Source: an uncultured Alphaproteobacteria bacterium (GTDB taxonomy: Bacteria; Pseudomonadota; Alphaproteobacteria; Rs-D84). From it: DNA of 64,000 nucleotides. The notes under the pieces are model-generated. The model made no database searches. It had not been told where the DNA came from and was given only the letters and a program-made list of their open reading frames with translations. Position numbers and translations under genes: made by a program. This document shows, in pieces, positions 6,646 to 22,729 of the stretch (positions are counted from its first letter, which is position 1; every line of letters begins with the position of its first letter). The stretch spans positions 1-64,000 of the forward strand of contig CALXMR010000003.1 in NCBI GenBank assembly GCA_944389525.1, read 5' to 3'.

Positions 6646-9573
6646 TTGGCATTTATTTGGTGAAAAACTGATCACAACCTTGCGACACGATTCGTTTGGC
6701 TTGGTATCAGGTGTATTGCATTCGGTTGATCCGACGCCAGACGTCTGTATGTTTGCAGATGGCAGTCCGGCCTGGATTAAGGCATCACCAACAGCCTTGG
6801 CCCGATTCTGTGATAATGGCATATTTATCTTGTCTGTTCCAGATCTGTCCGTGTGACCGACAACAGTTATACAATAGTTTGTATCACTGCCTTGGGTCGT
6901 CTTTACCTGGGTTGCAAATGTCTTTATTGTTGTTTGGGCCTGTTGTGTTAAATCCGATTTGCCCAGTTCAAATAGGTTTTGTGCAGGCAATATCAGTTGT
7001 TCCGGTTCTGGTTGAGATGGTACAGTCAATTTCTCTAGTGCGCTTTGTATCATGCTTACTTTTACTTCTACACATATACCCTGATCGTTAATTTCATATT
7101 TATTAGAAGGACATGTGCATTTGTTGTTAACCATATGATATCCATTTATGCATGAACAGGCACCAGTACTGGTATTAACTGTTACATTTGGATCTGTTTG
7201 ATCGCACTGCACTGTTACATTGGGCGACAACGTATTGCATGTATTATTTTCCCCAGGTGCCGTTCCTGATGGACATTCACATCCGTTGCCTGTTGTATTT
7301 GCAACCTTGGCACCGGGGCATTGTTCACAGGCGTTTGAATTAGTATTGTATGCATATTTGCTGTTTGTGCAACGGCAATTTGGGAATGTCCCAGTGGAAC
7401 CAGATGGACAACGAGCACCAGTTTCGCTGCTGGGCAGTTTCGCCGTATTGTCGCGTAATTTCTTTAGCGGTTCATACTTTGCAATAATTTCATCCGATTG
7501 TTCTTTTGGTGCCTTGTTATTTATAATTAAATTACCAACCATACCACCAACAGCACCAACGCCTGCAATGATTGCTCCAGTTTTTAGTTGTGATGATGTG
7601 TCTGCACGCTGTTGCGCCCATTCGGCGGCATCGGCACCCGTTGGATCAGACAACGCGCGCGACAGTGATGTATATGCACCATCTGTTCGGCCCAGTGATA
7701 CATCGTCATACAGACCCATGGTCGCACTGTCCATTACAACTTCGGATTCTATACCTGGGGCCAGCCCCAAGGCCTCTTTACGCGTTTTTACATCTGTGGA
7801 CAGGGCAAAAAAGTCTTGACGAAATTGCAATAGGGTTGCACTAACTGGTAATTGCACATCTGTTTCGCCACCCGCGATATTGCGGCCCGCACCATAGTCA
7901 CAGCGGAATGTTGCCAGATATGCCGCCATATCGCGTTCGGCGGCATCATCGGCGCGATTTTCTGCCACCGCAGACGCCAGTTGCATCCCCCCGATACCAG
8001 TGGCACCAATCGACAGTCCGCCCAATAATTTATTTGCGGTGGATTGTTCTTTCGCTTTCATCGCATCTGCATTCTTTTGCAGTTCGTCTATTTTTTTCTG
8101 TGATTCTTCTTCGGATAGTGTGGGACGAATACAGCTGCGTTGGTCATCGCTGGGGCGATATTCACCACTGCATTTTTCAATTATGCAAATTTCAGTATTT
8201 GTCGTTTCGTCCCATTTACGATGCGCTACGGTTGCATGTTCGGGCATAGGATCGCAATCGCCAGAAATTGGGATACATTTGCCATCAGAAGGATTATATC
8301 CATCGTCACAGTCTGTGGCATGGCAAACACCTTTTTTCAATTCGCCTGCCGTTGCGTGTTCAATTGCTGATACCTGTTCGCTGGTACATGGGCCCTCGCT
8401 TTTTTTACATGCAGAACGATTGTCGTTTGGCAGATAGCCCTTTTGGCATGTTTTGATAACACAAACTAATTCATTGTTTATCCATTCGTATTTAGACTTT
8501 TTTGCATTTGTATCGCCAGATGTGCATTCTTTACCAACCTGGTCTTCACACGCATCGCCAATGGTGATTGTTTCGCATTTATCAGTGACTTCACAAAAAT
8601 CTTCACATGAGCCATCTTCACCGGTGGAACCAATACATATTTCTTGCGCGTCTTTTCTGGATTGAACAGAACGTGGATTTGTTAATTTATACCGGTCTGA
8701 TACACATTGTATTGGATAGCATTTTTTACTGACGATATCATATGCAAGTGATTTTGAATTAGAGCCCTTTTCTGCAGTGCATACAGTGACAGTCACTTCG
8801 TCTATTTGCAGATCGGCTTCTGCTAATTTTATATCGCCCATGTTGTTATTAGCAGGCACATCAAAAGTCTGTGTTTTATAACCTGTTCGGGAAATTTTTA
8901 TTTGTGACACAGAACCTGGAACCGTTAATGAAAAATTTCCATCTATGTCAGCGGTTATCCCTTTATCTGTGCCCAGGGCAAACACGGCGGCAAATTCAAT
9001 GGGTTTTTTTGTGACAGAACTAATAATACGCCCTGTAATTGTTTTTTCTGTTGTTTCAGATTGATTGTTGGATGTTTCAAGATTTGCGTCTTTTTCTGTT
9101 GTAGAAACAGTGTTTGATTGTGTAGAAGGGGTGCCAGATGTGTTGTTGGTGGTATTACCGCATTCTTCTGCAATTTTTTTGTTTATAAACTGTTCCTCTG
9201 CATGGAATGCAATAAACTTGTCATCCATTTTACCACATACTAGATCCCAGCATTGTTCAGAAACGCATTCACGTAGCGTTTGCCCTTTTTTACATTCATA
9301 TGTAGTACGAGCATAACCAATGGGTTTGCAAGTGCCTTTTGTGTCTCCTGGAAGTGGTGTGTCTAGTTTTTGTTCACATTCTTCATCCTGCTTCTGTTTT
9401 AATTCATTATATATTTTTTGATAATCTTGATCTTCATCAAAATCGTAAAGAAGATTATACTGGAATCTTATGTCTGATACGCAGTTTTCGTATTCTGAAG
9501 ATGTTGCTGCCAATGCGGGCAGGGTGAATAAAACGGCAAAGATTGTTATTATATAATTTCTTATGCTATTCAT
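6643..9573 (-). CDS. exported multidomain protein: CarboxypepD_reg-like, Cys-rich, glycine zipper, OmpA
   Basis: The protein has 976 residues from the ATG at 9573, chosen because GAGAAG precedes it and a signal peptide (MNSIRNYIITIFAVLFTLPALA) follows; an in-frame ATG at 9585 overlaps the upstream stop. Order: Cys-rich N-terminal part; a beta-sandwich at about 180-250 (ITGRIISSVTKKPIEFAAV, ISRTGYKTQTFDV) typical of carboxypeptidase-regulatory-like domains common in Bacteroidetes; a long Cys-rich region with EGF-like spacing; two hydrophobic Gly-rich stretches; Cys-rich repeats; and a C-terminal OmpA/Pal peptidoglycan-binding domain (VVGHTDRSGT, SQNRAKAVGDAL). It is probably anchored to peptidoglycan. 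It is the third gene of the operon, after two other Cys-rich proteins. Confidence 0.85.
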   Translation of the reverse strand: MNSIRNYIITIFAVLFTLPALAATSSEYENCVSDIRFQYNLLYDFDEDQDYQKIYNELKQKQDEECEQKLDTPLPGDTKGTCKPIGYARTTYECKKGQTLRECVSEQCWDLVCGKMDDKFIAFHAEEQFINKKIAEECGNTTNNTSGTPSTQSNTVSTTEKDANLETSNNQSETTEKTITGRIISSVTKKPIEFAAVFALGTDKGITADIDGNFSLTVPGSVSQIKISRTGYKTQTFDVPANNNMGDIKLAEADLQIDEVTVTVCTAEKGSNSKSLAYDIVSKKCYPIQCVSDRYKLTNPRSVQSRKDAQEICIGSTGEDGSCEDFCEVTDKCETITIGDACEDQVGKECTSGDTNAKKSKYEWINNELVCVIKTCQKGYLPNDNRSACKKSEGPCTSEQVSAIEHATAGELKKGVCHATDCDDGYNPSDGKCIPISGDCDPMPEHATVAHRKWDETTNTEICIIEKCSGEYRPSDDQRSCIRPTLSEEESQKKIDELQKNADAMKAKEQSTANKLLGGLSIGATGIGGMQLASAVAENRADDAAERDMAAYLATFRCDYGAGRNIAGGETDVQLPVSATLLQFRQDFFALSTDVKTRKEALGLAPGIESEVVMDSATMGLYDDVSLGRTDGAYTSLSRALSDPTGADAAEWAQQRADTSSQLKTGAIIAGVGAVGGMVGNLIINNKAPKEQSDEIIAKYEPLKKLRDNTAKLPSSETGARCPSGSTGTFPNCRCTNSKYAYNTNSNACEQCPGAKVANTTGNGCECPSGTAPGENNTCNTLSPNVTVQCDQTDPNVTVNTSTGACSCINGYHMVNNKCTCPSNKYEINDQGICVEVKVSMIQSALEKLTVPSQPEPEQLILPAQNLFELGKSDLTQQAQTTIKTFATQVKTTQGSDTNYCITVVGHTDRSGTDKINMPLSQNRAKAVGDALIQAGLPSANIQTSGVGSTECNTPDTKPNESCRKVVISFSPNKCQ

Positions 9574-9581
9574 TTGTCTTC

Positions 9582-11309
9582 TCATCTAGATGATACGCCA
9601 CGAGTTGTTGTGCCAAGTAAACTTGAGGTTGGTCGGCTGAGCCCCGAGGGTGGTGTTAATGTTCCCATGTTAGTTGGTAATGATGTGTCCAGATTCAACG
9701 CTGGCGCCGCCCCACATGTGCCGCTGGCTGAATCCCAACTGCCACCGTTTTTACAAATACAATCGTCCCCAGACCACGTATTCCCCAGCGCAGTACACAT
9801 TTTTTCTTGCTCACTTAGTGGTTTTGGGCTTGTTTTAGGATTGCGTTCTATGCAACGACCACTGAAATCATCCCAAATTTGGTCGTCATCACATTCTGGA
9901 TCTTTACAGATGCCGTTTTGCCAGCTGCCACCGTTGGATTCACATTCTTTTTGGCGGGCATCTTCGACTGGTCGTGATGAAGAAGTTTTTTCGGCTTCTG
10001 ATTTTGCGTTTTTATCCGTTTTGCTATCGGATTTTTCGTCTTTGGATTCCGATTTGTCACCAAAATTCTCTTCGTGTTCTTTTTTAGCGTCTTTTACGGC
10101 GTCCTCTGCCTTTTGCCGGTCAATTGCGCGGCTAATTGCTCCAGATGTAAGCGCACCTGTGGCCACACCAAGTCCAGAACCCATCAGGGCCGCAGACGCA
10201 GATGTCTGGCTGCGTGTCAAGCGATATGCGTTTTCCATAAATGTTGTGACATCAATTCCAAACCAATCAGGTGTGCAATCAAAAACGCCGCCGGCATATG
10301 CCTTTTTCGATGCGAACAGTGTGGAATCATCGCCTGCATAGAATTCAACCGTGAATACGCAATCTAGACTGCGGTCGTCCAATGTCGCGCCCAGCATGCG
10401 GCACTGTTCGCGCATCTGATCGCGCAAGTCGTACAGACGCTGTTCATCGCGTTGGACCAAAACCTCGGCATCTTGGCGCAGGGCACCAAACACGGACATT
10501 GTGCGTGATGCCAGACCACTGTCTTGCTGGACACAGTTATCGGCAATTGTTTTACATTTTGCAATTGCGGCGTCCCCGGCGGATTTGCCTAGGCACTTGC
10601 TGAATGTGGTGCCACATTCGGTGATGATGCAATCGTTGTACTGGTTACCACAATCAATTACCGCATTATATGATGCCAGACGTGCATTCATGTCACGGTC
10701 GGCCTTTATCTCGGCCGCGAACAGGCGGTATTCTTCACCTGTGCACTGGGCGTCGATGTCGTTGCGGCATGCGTCCATTTTGTTGCCCCATATGGTATCT
10801 GTATCACCACGGCAATCATAAAAATTATTCCCGCACCGTTCTGTCATACATTGGCGCAGGCCGATGTCACATGCGTTTTGACCGCTGGCCACCGATGTGG
10901 TGGCGGTGGAAATGGCGTCATCTGCATCCAGTGCCGCACGCTGGGCCGCGATTGCATCAGCCAATGCGCGGGCCGAAGTGTCAGCGGTGCTGTTTTCTGT
11001 ATTAACATCTGCCAGGTATTCATCAAACTGTGACGATTTATTTTCGATAATAATTTCTTCGTCTGGTTCAGAATCTGGTTCAGTTGTTTTCGTGGTTGAC
11101 GTTTGTGTTGTTGATGGTGCCGTCATTGTTGGCATGCGCCCTGTGACATTTACGCGCGTTGATGTTGTTGGACGCGCGGATGTGCCACGCTGGACCACGG
11201 CGGCATCGGCCATCGGTGTAAACAGTGCGATTATTGCCACAAACGCGGCCAGACCAATTGTGTTGGTCTGGGTGATTTTCTGGTAAAGATTTTCAAACCG
11301 GTTTGTCAT
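9582..11309 (-). CDS. exported Cys-rich protein, middle gene of operon
   Basis: The protein has 575 residues from the ATG at 11309, placed 19 bases after the preceding gene. A longer frame exists, but it overlaps that gene and adds a Cys-rich non-signal leader. The signal segment (TIGLAAFVAIIALFTPMADA) is followed by the TGRMPTMTAP stretch seen in relatives, an Ala-rich helix, then paired-cysteine boxes CDIGLRQCMTERCGNNFYDC and CGNQYNDCIITECGTTFSKC. Next come a FDCTPDWFG segment with a glycine-zipper hydrophobic stretch as in the 1194 gene, a Lys/Glu/Asp-rich linker, and a Cys-rich tail with CESNGGSW-type repeats. It is probably a disulfide-bonded envelope protein. Function unknown. Confidence 0.8.
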   Translation of the reverse strand: MTNRFENLYQKITQTNTIGLAAFVAIIALFTPMADAAVVQRGTSARPTTSTRVNVTGRMPTMTAPSTTQTSTTKTTEPDSEPDEEIIIENKSSQFDEYLADVNTENSTADTSARALADAIAAQRAALDADDAISTATTSVASGQNACDIGLRQCMTERCGNNFYDCRGDTDTIWGNKMDACRNDIDAQCTGEEYRLFAAEIKADRDMNARLASYNAVIDCGNQYNDCIITECGTTFSKCLGKSAGDAAIAKCKTIADNCVQQDSGLASRTMSVFGALRQDAEVLVQRDEQRLYDLRDQMREQCRMLGATLDDRSLDCVFTVEFYAGDDSTLFASKKAYAGGVFDCTPDWFGIDVTTFMENAYRLTRSQTSASAALMGSGLGVATGALTSGAISRAIDRQKAEDAVKDAKKEHEENFGDKSESKDEKSDSKTDKNAKSEAEKTSSSRPVEDARQKECESNGGSWQNGICKDPECDDDQIWDDFSGRCIERNPKTSPKPLSEQEKMCTALGNTWSGDDCICKNGGSWDSASGTCGAAPALNLDTSLPTNMGTLTPPSGLSRPTSSLLGTTTRGVSSR

Positions 11310-11328
11310 GTTTATGTGTATCCATTCG

Positions 11329-12195
11329 TTAATCCAGTAAATCACATGCGATGTCATAGAATTCACACAGTTGGGTCGCACTGGCGCGTTCTGATTCGTA
11401 TCCGTCACCGCATTTGTTTGGCATGTTGCGTTCGCACACGGTTTCAATGCATGCGTTGCGTGCCGAATCGTTTTTGCACCCGTCTTGTGCGCTGGTTAAT
11501 TTCTGCGCGCGCGCCGTTTGGTAATTTTTAACAATCGTGGCCAGCATAGTGTCCGCACTTTCTATTGCAGAATCACGCGCGGCAATTAAATCTGTGCGGA
11601 TATCAGATACATAGTCGTCACAGCCGGCGGCCTCTACACTGCATGCGGCGAAAAATCTGTCAAAATCTGAATCGTTTTCGCATGCGCTGTAATCCGGGCC
11701 ACAGCGATTGGCCGCGACCAGACATGCGCGAATATTTGTCATGCATGTCGATTGGCTGACCGTTTGGGCGCGTTCCGACAGGGTGGTTGCCAGTTGTGCA
11801 CTGACCCCCGCGGCGCGACATGATTGTTCGATTAATTCATCGTATGCGTCTGATACATCGTCCGGGGTACATCCATCGATCTTTTTAATACACTGTGCCG
11901 TTGCCCATGCATAGCGTTGGCCAGGGTCGGTTGGCGCATCTTCCAGTTCATCTTCGCTGAGTGTATAGCGGGCAGATGCCCCCAACGATAAACTGCGCAT
12001 GCCGGTCTTGGTCGGTGGGGTGCCGGCACTGGATGTGCCACAATATTGACAGCGCGCCGCCGGATTAGACGATACATTTATCGCACACACAGAATCCAGG
12101 CACCGCGTCAGGTTCGCAACCGAACAGGTCGCCGCCGATGCCACCGCAGGGCACATAAATACCGCCAGTATGAAAAATATGTTTGTTGATTTCAT
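11329..12195 (-). CDS. exported Cys-rich protein, first gene of operon
   Basis: The protein has 288 residues with a clear signal peptide (MKSTNIFFILAVFMCPAVASAA). The mature part carries about 22 cysteines, including CLDSVCAI near the N terminus and the family box CMTNIRACLVAANRCGPDY..C. The C-terminal half has a further cluster (CIETVCERNMPNKCGDGY). It is the smallest member of the family in this window and heads the minus-strand run with the genes ending at 9582 and 6643. Paired cysteines suggest oxidative folding in the periplasm. No known fold was recognised by eye. Confidence 0.8.
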   Translation of the reverse strand: MKSTNIFFILAVFMCPAVASAATCSVANLTRCLDSVCAINVSSNPAARCQYCGTSSAGTPPTKTGMRSLSLGASARYTLSEDELEDAPTDPGQRYAWATAQCIKKIDGCTPDDVSDAYDELIEQSCRAAGVSAQLATTLSERAQTVSQSTCMTNIRACLVAANRCGPDYSACENDSDFDRFFAACSVEAAGCDDYVSDIRTDLIAARDSAIESADTMLATIVKNYQTARAQKLTSAQDGCKNDSARNACIETVCERNMPNKCGDGYESERASATQLCEFYDIACDLLD

Positions 12196-12328: not shown

Positions 12329-12979
12329 ATGGCCTTTAATAAAAAAGTTTTTTGTCATGTCAGTGCGGGTGTTGCGGCGGCAATACTGGTTGCTGTTTGC
12401 GTTACACAGTGTAATAATCAACAGAATCTGGTGAAAGATCTGGATGTTTATGACAAAGAAATCAAAGAAGCAAAAGAAACAATAAAAAAGGCAGCAAAAA
12501 TTGTTAATATTTTGACAGAAGAAAATCAAATCCAGGCGGATTCGATAGTAGTGTTGAATGATTCTATTGCAGTGTTAAACGATTCGTTAGATGTGGTAAG
12601 CGAACGTCTGGCGGATTGCCAAAAGGGCAAGTCGCGGCGCAAGCTACCAGCCAAGCCACAGCCAGTACCAGTCAAGCCACAGCCAGTACCAGCCAAGCCA
12701 CAGCCAGTACCAGCCAAGCCACAGCCAGCGTCAGAAAATACGACTGTCATTAACATTGATGATGGGGGGCAAAATCATGGTAATATAATTGTTGTGCCCG
12801 ATGGCGCTGGTAGTAGTAATACGGCTATTTCGATTGGGGATAATGCTGTTAATACTGGTGATATTACCGTGAATAACGGTGGTGTTATCAATAATTACTA
12901 TGGTGATACAGCACAGAAAAAAGAAAAGTGCAAGGTGCTGATTATCAGACGCGCAAATGTTAAATATAACGTGCGATAA
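12329..12979 (+). CDS. membrane-anchored coiled-coil protein with KPQPVPA repeats
   Basis: The protein has 216 residues. An N-terminal hydrophobic segment (about 11-26, AGVAAAILVAVCVTQC) could be a signal anchor. A charged heptad-like helix follows (about 33-100, with the tandem phrases VVLNDSIAVLND and SLDVV), then a proline repeat KPQPVPA/V in nearly four copies, and an Asn/Gly/Ile-rich segment (ISIGDNAVNTGDITVNNGG) that looks like a short beta-helix or fibre tip. The tail is basic. The proline repeat is probably a stiff spacer through peptidoglycan. It is transcribed alone, from a strong promoter to its own terminator, so the product may be abundant. No homologue was recognised. Confidence 0.75.
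   Translation: MAFNKKVFCHVSAGVAAAILVAVCVTQCNNQQNLVKDLDVYDKEIKEAKETIKKAAKIVNILTEENQIQADSIVVLNDSIAVLNDSLDVVSERLADCQKGKSRRKLPAKPQPVPVKPQPVPAKPQPVPAKPQPASENTTVINIDDGGQNHGNIIVVPDGAGSSNTAISIGDNAVNTGDITVNNGGVINNYYGDTAQKKEKCKVLIIRRANVKYNVR
12653..12730 (+). repeat. in-frame 21-base tandem repeat (3.7 copies)
   Basis: The unit AAGCCACAGCCAGTACCAGCC is repeated three times with one T/C difference in the first copy (12653-12673, 12674-12694, 12695-12715) and then partially at 12716-12730. Because the unit is 21 bases, copy-number change would keep the reading frame and only lengthen or shorten the KPQPVPA spacer. Confidence 0.9.
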
Positions 12980-13067: not shown

Positions 13068-13094
13068 ATTTTCTGTACAGACGAGAGAATGGTA

Positions 13095-16000
13095 ATGAAG
13101 AAATTTATTCAGGCGTTTTTATTTGCATTGTTTTTGATTCCGTCAACTGCGTTTGTGGCATCGGCGGCGACTGTGAATAATGAATTTATGGTGGCGGCAC
13201 AGTTATTGTCGGCGGCAAAAAATGCCGATATTCAACAGGTCCAGGCACTGATTAACAACGGGGCAAATGTTAACTATGTGGACAGCACGGGGCTGTCGCT
13301 GGTCTGTACGGCGCTGATGAATAATGATTTGCGGGCGGCACAAATTTTACAGATGTATGGGGCAGATGCGTCCCAGTGCGACCGCCAGATAAAACAGTAC
13401 CAGTCGCGAAATTCCCCCAATACGGACAGTGGGGGACTGTTCAGCGGACTGTCTTCCGCCCAGAATATTGCATTGGCGGCGGCGGGGGCCGCCGTTGTTG
13501 TAGGGGGGCTGTTTTTGCTGACCGATTGGCTGGATCCGGGAAATGAAAATGACAACGGCGGCAGTGGCAGTGGCGGTAACAGACCCGGCCAGGGTGAAAA
13601 CGGCGGCGGCAGCAGTGGGGGCGAAGGTTGGGCCAAGGGCGCGTTGCCGTATGGGCCGGCAATGCCAAATGCCACAGAAGAAAGTGCGAAATATTATACC
13701 GAACTGGATTATTACAGCCCAGATATCACCGTTGATCCTGATGAGCCCAGTGGTGAAGAGTTAGCGGGTGCCGCCATCAGGCAGGAAGTTTTTGATTTGA
13801 TGACGGATGCGTATAAACAAAATTATCTGTTGATGATGCGTGGGTATTCTGCGCTGGCGCGTGGATATATGGGGCAACGGACATTGCGCCGTACGGATAA
13901 TGCGCCGTTTTCCAGTGCGGAATTATCACATTACAATATCGGTGATATTGCCGTGACGGGTGGGCGACCAGTGACAGTTGCGCTGATTACAGAAAATGGT
14001 ATAAATGCCGCGCCAAAGCCGGCCGGTGAAGATACGGCGCAAATAAACTCGCTGGATGACGAATTGCTGGGGTGGACAACGACAAATGGTAATAATGGGC
14101 TAAGCACGGCGCAGAACAATATGTTGTCCAGCAAATATTATAACAATGTGGTTCAGCTGGGTACGGGCGAAGCAAACCAGATATCTGGCGCGTACACATA
14201 CGAAGATGGCAGTTTGGTAAATAATTTTGATTTGTCAGGATTTGGGACGGCGGTAAACAATACATATGCGACAGATGATGATGACTTGTTGGCGAAAATA
14301 TTGGGCGGCAGTTTGTCAGGATTTGGAACGGCGGACTTTATCGGATTTATGCCGAATGGCCAGATGCTGGTCTATCGCACAGGTGGTGGTACAGGGCTGG
14401 TGCAATTGAAAGAACCATCAAATGCAGGCACATATGTTATGAACAATGAAGAAAGCCTGGCCACTGGGGATACATTGAATTTGTTTGGTAAAACATTAAC
14501 TGTCACCAGAACTGGAAATCAAATAACCGCGGTCGCAGATGATGAAACAAAATATACGGGCTATATCGGGGCAGACGGATTACTGTATATCGACAGCGCG
14601 GCAGATGGTGTTATTAACCAGGCATATCAGATGACGGACAATAATCTGATACTGACCAAAGAAACAGGAAAATTGGATTATTTGAATTACAGTGCGCTGA
14701 ATGATGCTGCATTGCGGTTTACATCGGGCGATCTGGCTGGTGGCCGATCCCAGCCGTTTATACTGGCTAATGCGTCTGTGATTGACCCGTTGTATGATCG
14801 TGGCGCGGCAACGATTAATGATGTGTTGAATTTCAGTACCCAAGAAACGCAACAGGCGGGGTTCGCGCTGTACATAAATCAATACTATAATCAAAACAAG
14901 GATGATACGACAAATCCGGCATCTGATGCGGCAAAGTTCTTTGGCGGGTTGGGGTCCAGTTATTCGCCGTTGGTGATATTTTCAACCGGTGCGTCAGAAA
15001 CGGACAGTCTGTACAGTGGTGCAAATTTAACCGCGACATTTGAAAATTCTGCGCCGTTGGTTTATGACAATTTGGAACGCCTGTTCATGTCAATTGTGCC
15101 GGTAATTCAATCTGGGAATGGTACCAGTGGTACAGACACGGTCAGTGGATATTCCCAGGAAAATAAATATGTCGTTTCGCAGTGGCAAAATACAAATAAT
15201 ACATCTGATACAACGAATGATGATACATATTACAAGGGGCGCGTATGTGGCATCGCGGGTACGGGTGCAAATGGTGTTGATCCATGGTGCTTTGCGGCGG
15301 CCGGTGTGACCGATGAACAGGCTGTGTCTGCGGCGGCTGGGGCGGCCGGGTCGTTAAAGTCGGCGTTCAGTTATATGACGAACAAGGAAATTTTCACCCT
15401 GTTGGCGTTGACGGCGGACGGCGCGTATTTGGCAACGGATTCCAGTGGTAATGCGTTTTCCGAAGATGGATTGGTTTCGTACTTGCAGTCTATGTACCAG
15501 ATGCCGAACGAGTATGAAATGCGCTGGAAAGTGGGCGGTGAAAATTACCTGGATGTGTTCAAGGAAGTCTTTGGATACGGGGTTATAAATCTGGAACGCG
15601 CAACAACGCCGGGTAAAACAATTTATTTCTTTGACGGCAGTGGTAATATCGTATCTGACAGTGGTAATGCATATTGGCGTGCGGCATCAAATACATTGTT
15701 CCGGCCGTCTGCGGTGTTTGGTTCGGGGACATCAACTATCAGTGCGCCGTTCTATGATGTCCTGGAAAGTTTTGATGGGTCGATGCGTCTGCCGCGTGTG
15801 TGGGAAAACGAATTCGCGCTGGGCGCCACGGGGGAACGCGGACTGTATATGGGCGATGTGTTGGGTGAATTTAAAACGCGTGATACAGAACCCCAGCGGG
15901 TCGAGTTTGGTAACTTTGGTTTTTCTATGGCTGTGTCTGAAAAGCCGTATGCAGATAATCTGAATGGGCTGGATAATATGCGTTTGGATTATGCGCACGG

Positions 16001-16847
16001 CGATTGGAATTTTGCCGCCGGTTTCCAACGGCACTTTACAGATGGCGCATCGCGATTTGATGGGATGACAAATCCGATATTGGGGCTGGCGTCTAATGCA
16101 ATTATTACGGATGTAGCGTATAATTCTGGGGCATGGTCGTTTGGGGCGCGCACATTTTCTGGTGCAATCACAGATGAAACCATGCTGGACAGTGACCCGA
16201 CATTATCGGCGCAATATACGCCGGCACAGTTGGGATTGGTCCAGGGGGCACAATCTGATATCGCATGGAACGGTACGCAGTTTGGATTTACTACATCGGT
16301 TGGTATGATGCATGAAACAAATACATTGTTGGGGGCAATGTCGGGCGGATTGTTGGATATGGGCAATGGCGACACGATGTATGTTGATACGGAATTGCGC
16401 TGGGCGCCGACAGATTTGCTGGCGTTTAAGTTACGGTCAACATTTGCGCGTACAACGGCGGATGCATCGGGGCAATTTATATTGGGAATGACCGATATTG
16501 ATTCAAATGCCTTTGCGTTTGGGGTGGATGCCGGTAATTTCAGTTTTGCTGTTGCGGCACCGTTGGCAATCAGCAGCGGTTCAATACAATATCCACATGC
16601 AAATTACCAGGTTGTGGAAACAGATGATGGGCAGTATGATTTGAATGTGACAGATATGTATGTCGCGGATTTAAATTTGCGCCCTGATACGCGTGAGGTT
16701 CGATTTACTGGCACATATCGGCATAATTTTGGCGAATTTACCGATGGGGCGGTTGGGTTTATATATCGGGTAAATCCAAACAATACATCTGAATTTGGCA
16801 ATGAATCCATATTTATGATGAAGTTAACGCATCGGTTGGGAATCTAG
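13095..16847 (+). CDS. giant ankyrin / degenerate subtilase / beta-barrel surface protein
   Basis: The protein has 1250 residues from the ATG at 13095; GAGAGA is well spaced for it, while the in-frame ATG at 13089 lies too close. Order: signal peptide; about two ankyrin-like repeats (about 33-100, DIQQVQALINNGANVNYVD); a hydrophobic Ala/Val helix (about 124-146); a Gly/Asn linker; a large central region; and a C-terminal barrel of about 300 residues. The centre follows the layout of subtilisin-like (S8) autotransporter passengers (VTVALITENGIN at the Asp site, WCFAAAG before the Ser site, FGYGVINLERATTPG at the end). However, the catalytic Asp is not in place and no GTS-x-A-x-P serine box is found. 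It is probably an inactive subtilase used as an adhesin or scaffold. It ends THRLGI, without the usual terminal Phe. Confidence 0.75.
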   Translation: MKKFIQAFLFALFLIPSTAFVASAATVNNEFMVAAQLLSAAKNADIQQVQALINNGANVNYVDSTGLSLVCTALMNNDLRAAQILQMYGADASQCDRQIKQYQSRNSPNTDSGGLFSGLSSAQNIALAAAGAAVVVGGLFLLTDWLDPGNENDNGGSGSGGNRPGQGENGGGSSGGEGWAKGALPYGPAMPNATEESAKYYTELDYYSPDITVDPDEPSGEELAGAAIRQEVFDLMTDAYKQNYLLMMRGYSALARGYMGQRTLRRTDNAPFSSAELSHYNIGDIAVTGGRPVTVALITENGINAAPKPAGEDTAQINSLDDELLGWTTTNGNNGLSTAQNNMLSSKYYNNVVQLGTGEANQISGAYTYEDGSLVNNFDLSGFGTAVNNTYATDDDDLLAKILGGSLSGFGTADFIGFMPNGQMLVYRTGGGTGLVQLKEPSNAGTYVMNNEESLATGDTLNLFGKTLTVTRTGNQITAVADDETKYTGYIGADGLLYIDSAADGVINQAYQMTDNNLILTKETGKLDYLNYSALNDAALRFTSGDLAGGRSQPFILANASVIDPLYDRGAATINDVLNFSTQETQQAGFALYINQYYNQNKDDTTNPASDAAKFFGGLGSSYSPLVIFSTGASETDSLYSGANLTATFENSAPLVYDNLERLFMSIVPVIQSGNGTSGTDTVSGYSQENKYVVSQWQNTNNTSDTTNDDTYYKGRVCGIAGTGANGVDPWCFAAAGVTDEQAVSAAAGAAGSLKSAFSYMTNKEIFTLLALTADGAYLATDSSGNAFSEDGLVSYLQSMYQMPNEYEMRWKVGGENYLDVFKEVFGYGVINLERATTPGKTIYFFDGSGNIVSDSGNAYWRAASNTLFRPSAVFGSGTSTISAPFYDVLESFDGSMRLPRVWENEFALGATGERGLYMGDVLGEFKTRDTEPQRVEFGNFGFSMAVSEKPYADNLNGLDNMRLDYAHGDWNFAAGFQRHFTDGASRFDGMTNPILGLASNAIITDVAYNSGAWSFGARTFSGAITDETMLDSDPTLSAQYTPAQLGLVQGAQSDIAWNGTQFGFTTSVGMMHETNTLLGAMSGGLLDMGNGDTMYVDTELRWAPTDLLAFKLRSTFARTTADASGQFILGMTDIDSNAFAFGVDAGNFSFAVAAPLAISSGSIQYPHANYQVVETDDGQYDLNVTDMYVADLNLRPDTREVRFTGTYRHNFGEFTDGAVGFIYRVNPNNTSEFGNESIFMMKLTHRLGI

Positions 16848-21552: not shown

Positions 21553-22656
21553 TTACCGATTTGTTGGTGCGCCGTTTATCTGGACTGGGATGATAGTTTC
21601 TGCGCGTACGGTATCCAGTGGGTGTGATTGGAATGCGATATTTGCAAAATCAATCTTGTTCAAATCAATCGAACGCAATGTGCGGTTATACATCGTGTTA
21701 TAGTACACAACCTTGTCATGCATGTCGGTGGCAATCGTCCATTGGGTTGCCGATGGCATATTAACTGGTGCGCGGCCAGGCGCGTATTCTGTCCCCAGTG
21801 GCACATCAAAATTATTCAATATATGAAACGCCTGCATTGCCGAATCGTATGAAGTGTCTTGTTGAATAGAATAGTTCTGTAAAAATGCCGCGCGAACGAA
21901 TCGCGATGGTGGTGTAAAATCGCCTGGCAATCCCAAAAATCCAGATCCTGCGCCAAATGCGCGCAGCGTGATTGGCCCAAATTGAACCGGGCCGGCGGTG
22001 CCGGGAATCAAATTGACATAGTTATTCAGATTTCGCAATTGCCATGGATAATCTGGCGAATTGGTCAGCACGCCCAGTTTGCTGTCATATACATTGGCGC
22101 GACCGTTTGTGATTTCGATTATAATCTGGGCACCAGATGCATCTGTCACGCGCCAGTGCGCCGTTGATGCGCGTGGGTCGATACTGGTAACACGAATGTT
22201 GTTGATTGCGGCGCGTACTTGGTCCACCGTAGAAAAACGAGACAGTATCCACGACACCAATTGAAAGTCAGAAATTGTTCGGGCGGCATCGGACGGATTG
22301 TATTCTGGATATTGGCCATAGCCGGGGAAATAAAACAATCCTGCGGACAGGCCGGCTTCGTTCATGCCGTCAACCACCCATCCTGGTTGCACCACTGCCA
22401 ATCCGACATAGCCATACATGCTGGAAAAAGTCAGGCCACCTGTATCACCATTGGGCAGCATTGATTGCTGGATATATCCGCGTGGGACGATGGTGTACAT
22501 GTTTTCCATTTCTGATTCGCCCCATTCAATGGTGCGGGCGGTGACAACGCCGTTGTCTTTGGATTTCAGGGTTATGCCTGTACAGGCGTATGCCCCGTTG
22601 GCGCACACGATGCCGATTAACGCGGCCAGTGCGGAAAATTTTTTTCTGCTCTCCAT
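21553..22656 (-). CDS. secreted choloylglycine hydrolase family protein (bile salt hydrolase / penicillin V acylase)
   Basis: The protein has 367 residues from the ATG at 22656. The signal peptide (MESRKKFSALAALIGIVCANGAYA, given as one peptide ending GAYA) is cleaved just before Cys, leaving CTGITLK as the N-terminal nucleophile; longer in-frame starts (22674, 22692) would only lengthen the leader. Counting that Cys as 1, Arg17 and Glu20 (ARTIEW) sit at the active-site positions, with LTNSPDYPWQ carrying the conserved Asn and SRFVRAAF the conserved Arg. These Ntn-hydrolases cut the amide of conjugated bile salts or penicillin V, and the Glu form is typical of Gram-negative members. The periplasmic location and the gut-like context favour bile salts, but the substrate cannot be settled by sequence. 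Confidence 0.88.
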   Translation of the reverse strand: MESRKKFSALAALIGIVCANGAYACTGITLKSKDNGVVTARTIEWGESEMENMYTIVPRGYIQQSMLPNGDTGGLTFSSMYGYVGLAVVQPGWVVDGMNEAGLSAGLFYFPGYGQYPEYNPSDAARTISDFQLVSWILSRFSTVDQVRAAINNIRVTSIDPRASTAHWRVTDASGAQIIIEITNGRANVYDSKLGVLTNSPDYPWQLRNLNNYVNLIPGTAGPVQFGPITLRAFGAGSGFLGLPGDFTPPSRFVRAAFLQNYSIQQDTSYDSAMQAFHILNNFDVPLGTEYAPGRAPVNMPSATQWTIATDMHDKVVYYNTMYNRTLRSIDLNKIDFANIAFQSHPLDTVRAETIIPVQINGAPTNR

Positions 22657-22729
22657 GTCTGTATTGTGGTGCATTTGTTTGACTTTTACCACAGGAAAGA
22701 TATCGGGTCCGCGCCCTAAGATGAATGTG

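Follow-up and report, generated by a model that had tools for sequence, protein, structure and literature searches.

The window analyzed here is a 64,000-nucleotide stretch of DNA from a Candidatus Enterousia-type bacterium (Alphaproteobacteria, order Rs-D84), whose named relatives are recorded as uncultured Alphaproteobacteria and Candidatus Enterousia. Enterousia has been placed in the GTDB order Rs-D84, which comprises gut bacteria with genomes of approximately 1 Mb that lack standard sugar, amino acid, or peptide transporters and are thought to depend on partners (PMC12306168). Positions 13095 to 16847 of the forward strand form an open, unbroken frame of 1,250 residues. The frame could open at 13089, and the orthologs begin at the second methionine, at 13095; residues are numbered here with Met1 at 13089, such that the ortholog start is Met3. 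The following features were located on the frame and are listed in the order in which they occur.

13095..13169 (+), Sec signal peptide MKKFIQAFLFALFLIPSTAFVASAA, residues 3-27, identified by inspection and the same in orthologs, with cleavage at approximately ASA/AT read by eye
13185..13388 (+), two ankyrin repeats, residues 33-100, including Cys73 and Cys97 (Pfam, profile, and fold matches)
13467..13523 (+), hydrophobic helix IALAAAGAAVVVGGLFLLT, residues 127-145 (hydrophobicity)
13533..13634 (+), Gly/Ser/Asn-rich linker, residues 149-182 (sequence)
13641..15683 (+), pseudo-subtilase region, residues 185-865, predicted S8 fold without the catalytic residues (AF2, fold search, hhalign)
13989..13991 (+), equivalent of the Asp site, Thr301 (alignment)
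14289..14291 (+), equivalent of the His site, Leu401, with LAKI... in place of HGTH... (alignment)
14391..14663 (+), variable beta-rich insertion, approximately residues 435-525 (ortholog matches; strands in the model)
14991..14993 (+), equivalent of the oxyanion Asn site, Ala635 (alignment)
15315..15317 (+), equivalent of the Ser site, Glu743 (alignment)
15729..16844 (+), C-terminal outer-membrane beta-barrel, residues 881-1252 (AF2, fold search, hhalign)

The sequence landmarks on which the initial annotation had based its comparison with S8-type autotransporters are all present, with VTVALITENGIN at residues 295-306, WCFAAAG at 733-739, and GYGVINLERA at 829-838.

Two secreted Cys-rich proteins without Pfam matches are encoded divergently upstream (11329-12195 and 9582-11312, both on the minus strand). 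Both genes adjoin the pseudo-subtilase gene in 53/54 related contigs, and their products are possible functional partners; the downstream grpE/tpiA/ppiD block is nearby in only about half of the related contigs. Just upstream of the frame, 12329-12979 (+) encodes a coiled-coil-like protein of 216 residues that has a single hydrophobic segment at its N-terminus and was matched in 22/54 related contigs. Farther away are a secreted Cys-rich protein of 980 residues that combines a carboxypeptidase-regulatory-like domain with an OmpA domain at its C-terminus (6646-9585, minus strand) and a choloylglycine (bile salt) hydrolase family protein (21556-22692, minus strand; PF02275, E = 9e-64). Outside the window, the host genome encodes a compact, 616-residue S8 autotransporter (L155 4692-6542, minus strand; approximately 88.7-90.5 kb of G000:C3) that keeps the Ser and Asn and in which the Asp and the HG motif are only about 8 residues apart (LDAGMDSWHGK). 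The same compaction recurs in compact S8 autotransporters across the genus.

The ankyrin-like repeats proposed to follow the signal peptide are detectable with Pfam, in which Ank_4 passes its cut-off of 22.7 bits with a score of 23.2. A profile of the ortholog family matched designed ankyrin proteins in the PDB at an E value of 4e-24, and the N-terminus of the AF2 model likewise returned DARPins as fold matches. This region is also the sole Ank_2 match in the host genome. Cys73 and Cys97 are invariant throughout the genus, and the pair is retained in distant relatives with an active-looking or intact protease domain; the two residues probably form a disulfide. The conserved pair, together with a DsbA gene in the host genome, is consistent with an exported, oxidized ankyrin domain. 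Ankyrin repeats that are secreted and contain a conserved Cys pair have themselves received little study.

A hydrophobic helix had also been claimed between the ankyrin repeats and the protease-like region, and on the central-position biological hydrophobicity scale the stretch at residues 127-145 has a value of -0.65; over the helix, 76 of 77 orthologs fall below 2 on the same scale. AF2 confidence is low at this position. By inspection, the Sec signal peptide is conserved in orthologs, and an Omp85 protein is encoded in the host genome. A helix inserted in the inner membrane should halt translocation, which is at odds with a translocated barrel; the helix could instead slip through Sec or anchor the N-terminus later. 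In ankyrin-free S8 autotransporters, a Gly-run follows a lipobox-like sequence (e.g., LTGCGGGGG), and in the ankyrin forms the Gly-run follows the hydrophobic helix. Given this shared position, the helix may have replaced a lipobox-type N-terminal membrane anchor or may be what is left of one.

The region between the linker and the barrel was assigned to a fold by structure prediction. An AF2 model of residues 27-905, built from 76 Enterousia-group sequences that included no intact S8 sequence, reached a mean pLDDT of 85, with most of the pseudo-protease region above 90. Its ten best PDB fold matches were all subtilases, among them mirolase, fusolisin, the Serratia autotransporter Ssp, MycP1, and a subtilisin-derived ligase, and S8 proteins were also at the top of a search of a viral fold library. 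The TM-scores of the ten best matches were low, at 0.12-0.23 by query and 0.25-0.47 by target, probably as a result of the long insertions, so that sequence evidence carries weight for the assignment. Here, hhalign aligned the protein with intact S8 domains at an E value of 5e-13 over the C-terminal half; mismatched domains, used as a control, were unrelated (E of approximately 0.5). The Pfam scan returned no PF00082 match in the window protein itself. PF00082 was nonetheless the most frequent Pfam family among 69 orthologs (5/69 at E ≤ 0.01), and orthologs in two genomes, G124 and G087, exceed its curated cut-off. Homologs from other families of the order (L031, L131, and L032) score 86, 77, and 58 bits, respectively, and share the ankyrin pair and barrel, thereby bridging the Enterousia proteins and the PF00082 subtilases. 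The beta-rich insertion at approximately residues 435-525 is missing from shorter orthologs, which match residues 3-433 and approximately 526-1250. Taken with the model, these results show the passenger to have an S8 fold. A coincidental likeness of a passenger with an unrelated fold, as might be read from the missing PF00082 match and the low TM-scores, is very improbable, since the profile comparison and the fold search agree with the intermediate sequences and with the order of the domains.

The final barrel is well supported. The C-terminal 390 residues were predicted as a barrel (AF2 pLDDT, 84; pTM, 0.82) with fold matches to porins, which were best, and to the EstA autotransporter. The homology of the barrel to S8 autotransporter barrels of Alphaproteobacteria is evident from profile comparison (hhalign E = 1e-24), which also links it to barrels of the L031 type (E = 1e-14). 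Across 66 orthologous barrels, there was no match to the PF03797 autotransporter beta-domain at E ≤ 1 and no real match to other Pfam barrel families, and a sequence search of the PDB with the barrel gave no match.

The loss of catalytic residues was assessed in an alignment of 77 nonredundant orthologs. The Asp site is Thr in 76/77 (Thr301 here), and His is present at the His site in 0/77 (Leu401 here). The Ser site is Glu in 68/77 (Glu743 here) and aligns without gaps through to the invariant Gly751. The oxyanion Asn site is variable, with Asn in one ortholog of the 77 (Ala635 here), and Lys403 is kept in 76/77. Thus, the Asp and the GTS-x-A-x-P box reported as missing are absent from their expected places both in this protein and across the orthologs, and no intact triad is present elsewhere in the chain. 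The dead-enzyme reading is well supported, with all four sites (Asp, His, Ser, and oxyanion Asn) lost in the Enterousia family. The replacements (Thr301, Lys403, and Glu743) are specific rather than random. Their strong conservation would also suit an enzyme that remains active through a new site centered on these three residues. The variable oxyanion position argues against that reading, as does the fact that we know of no S8 subgroup using a Thr/Lys/Glu set, and we regard it as improbable.

The gene is widespread and maintained. Within the genus Candidatus Enterousia there is approximately one ortholog per genome, at roughly 40-73% identity; an ortholog was found in 33/34 of the other genus genomes searched first, in one of them only as an N-terminal piece located at the end of a contig. 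The barrel profile matched in 175/201 genomes of the order and in 111/126 of those at least 90% complete, and nearly all members of the Enterousia family carry the dead form. The gene is missing from at least two near-complete Enterousia genomes (G145 and G070) and is therefore not essential everywhere; a plasmid collection gave no match to it. For close pairs, most dN/dS values for the pseudo-protease lay between 0.03 and 0.22; the barrel gave 0.03-0.19, and values for the ankyrin region were equally low. Values this far below 1 rule out pseudogene decay and indicate long-term purifying selection on a gene that is maintained. In combination with the identity range and the presence of about one ortholog per genus genome, they show that the architecture is not a product of chance.

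The initial annotation considered a secreted ankyrin joined to a pseudo-protease autotransporter unusual. The architecture is not unique: a search of related genomes recovered it in both intact and dead forms, and other alphaproteobacterial families carry the ankyrin-helix-S8-barrel arrangement with an intact triad (L140/G490, L147/G365, L184/G238, L185/G289, L199/G550, and L201/G417). In L199, an unmistakable ankyrin pair and a Gly-rich linker are followed by VLDSGID, EHGSNVA, AAGNEG, and GTSFAAP. Approximately 7 of 385 class-wide genomes contain an N-terminal ankyrin-region match or motif together with an S8 domain. Two further families of the order (f3 and f6) have intermediate dead forms. 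L031 and L131 retain the Asp and the oxyanion Asn and have lost the His and Ser, with SFATQAAG instead of HGTHVAG and GSAAATA instead of GTSMATP; in L032, the Asp is lost as well. All three carry a long insert ahead of the dead Ser site with DxNxDG loops resembling calcium-binding sites. The family f6 homologs (L031 8570-9205 and L131 1267-1956 loci) lie between what we take to be tatD-like and metal-dependent-hydrolase-like genes, a neighborhood that differs from that of the Enterousia gene.

In a tree of the S8 C-terminus and barrel, all ankyrin-S8 and Rs-D84 proteins fall on one side (82/89). The tree favors two losses of catalysis, but a single clade is not rejected (AU p = 0.104). Together, the intact forms in other families and the intermediate dead forms in f3 and f6 indicate that the ankyrin-subtilase autotransporter was inherited and that one or two losses of catalysis followed within the order. 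The result is an evolutionary series in which a secreted protease would turn into a binding protein: other families have the intact protein, sister families have partly dead forms, and in the Enterousia family the catalytic residues are entirely lost.

We favor, with a probability of roughly 0.62, the interpretation that the protein is a catalytically dead ankyrin-subtilase autotransporter that is tethered at the cell surface and acts as a binding protein (adhesin or receptor). Under the envelope topology that we infer, the protein would be exported by Sec and have its Cys pairs oxidized in the periplasm; the Bam machinery would insert the barrel, and the pseudo-subtilase would be on display outside the cell. 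The ankyrin pair, which precedes the helix, would most likely be periplasmic and would anchor or dock the N-terminus. As self-cleavage would not be possible, the passenger would remain tethered and work as a binding protein; binding to an extracellular target is probably what has preserved the dead enzyme in evolution. The ligand that we infer could be a partner cell, mucus, or a peptide or nutrient, with contacts in the remodeled cleft that once held the active site or on the variable beta-rich insertion. A more specific proposal, which we put forward only tentatively, is that the site respecified with Thr, Lys, and Glu forms a pocket for a host or partner ligand in a near family-wide receptor, while the disulfide-bonded periplasmic ankyrin pair docks, passing a signal or linking the outer membrane to envelope proteins such as the adjacent Cys-rich proteins. 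For the question of how small-genome, transporter-poor Rs-D84 bacteria live with their partners, a large conserved nonenzymatic surface protein is a strong candidate contact molecule.

Unlikely in our estimate is a reading in which the function resides in the barrel, acting as a nutrient channel or in uptake, and the pseudo-subtilase and ankyrin pair serve it as a plug, lid, or folding aid, perhaps in the periplasm. Such a role would suit an order without standard uptake systems (PMC12306168), and it draws on the porins among the barrel fold matches and on a helix that is hard to reconcile with full export. The closest sequence relatives of the barrel are nevertheless those of S8 autotransporters, the passenger is constrained about as much as the barrel, and large variable insertions fit a surface domain better than a plug. 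Less probable again is a role as partner of the compact S8 autotransporter, with the pseudo-protease regulating it or presenting substrate in the manner of CspC/CspA with CspB. The compact protein of the host genome does keep its Ser, Asn, Asp, and HG motif, and a counterpart was present in most relatives inspected, but the two genes are about 73 kb apart. Furthermore, among genomes at least 90% complete, the 111/126 with the pseudo-protease barrel compare with 73/126 with any PF00082 match. Many genomes thus have the dead protein without a PF00082 match, which makes a regulatory role for the compact paralog less likely.

The preferred reading, a surface-tethered binding protein, can be set beside several known systems, although no description of an ankyrin-subtilase autotransporter, dead or otherwise, was found in the open-licence literature. 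Dead serine protease homologs are common in bacteria, accounting for 42 of 966 in one survey (PMC2605481). Plasmodium PIMMS2 is likewise reported to be a subtilisin-like pseudo-enzyme that promotes host-tissue invasion, but it is a eukaryotic parasite protein of unrelated architecture (PMC5520436). CspC and CspA of Clostridioides difficile are bacterial subtilases that have lost catalytic residues and act as sensors or regulators, and CspC provides a precedent for ligand sensing by a dead subtilase (PMC6636752). Both differ from the protein described here in being soluble spore proteins with a prodomain and a jelly-roll insertion, in having no barrel or ankyrin repeats, and in having two catalytic sites changed rather than all (PMC6636752); no prodomain was seen in the window protein, either in the sequence or with Pfam. 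Ssp of Serratia marcescens (PDB 8e7f) has an S8 passenger on an autotransporter, is a fold match, and is matched by the homolog L031 by sequence at an E value of 1.5e-12. It differs in its annotation as an extracellular serine protease and, to our knowledge, has no ankyrin repeats or internal helix. The intact alphaproteobacterial ankyrin-S8 autotransporters have the same signal peptide, Cys-pair ankyrin, helix, Gly/Ser linker, S8 domain, and homologous barrel. They keep the Asp, His, Asn, and Ser; in the Enterousia protein, all four are gone and long insertions are present.
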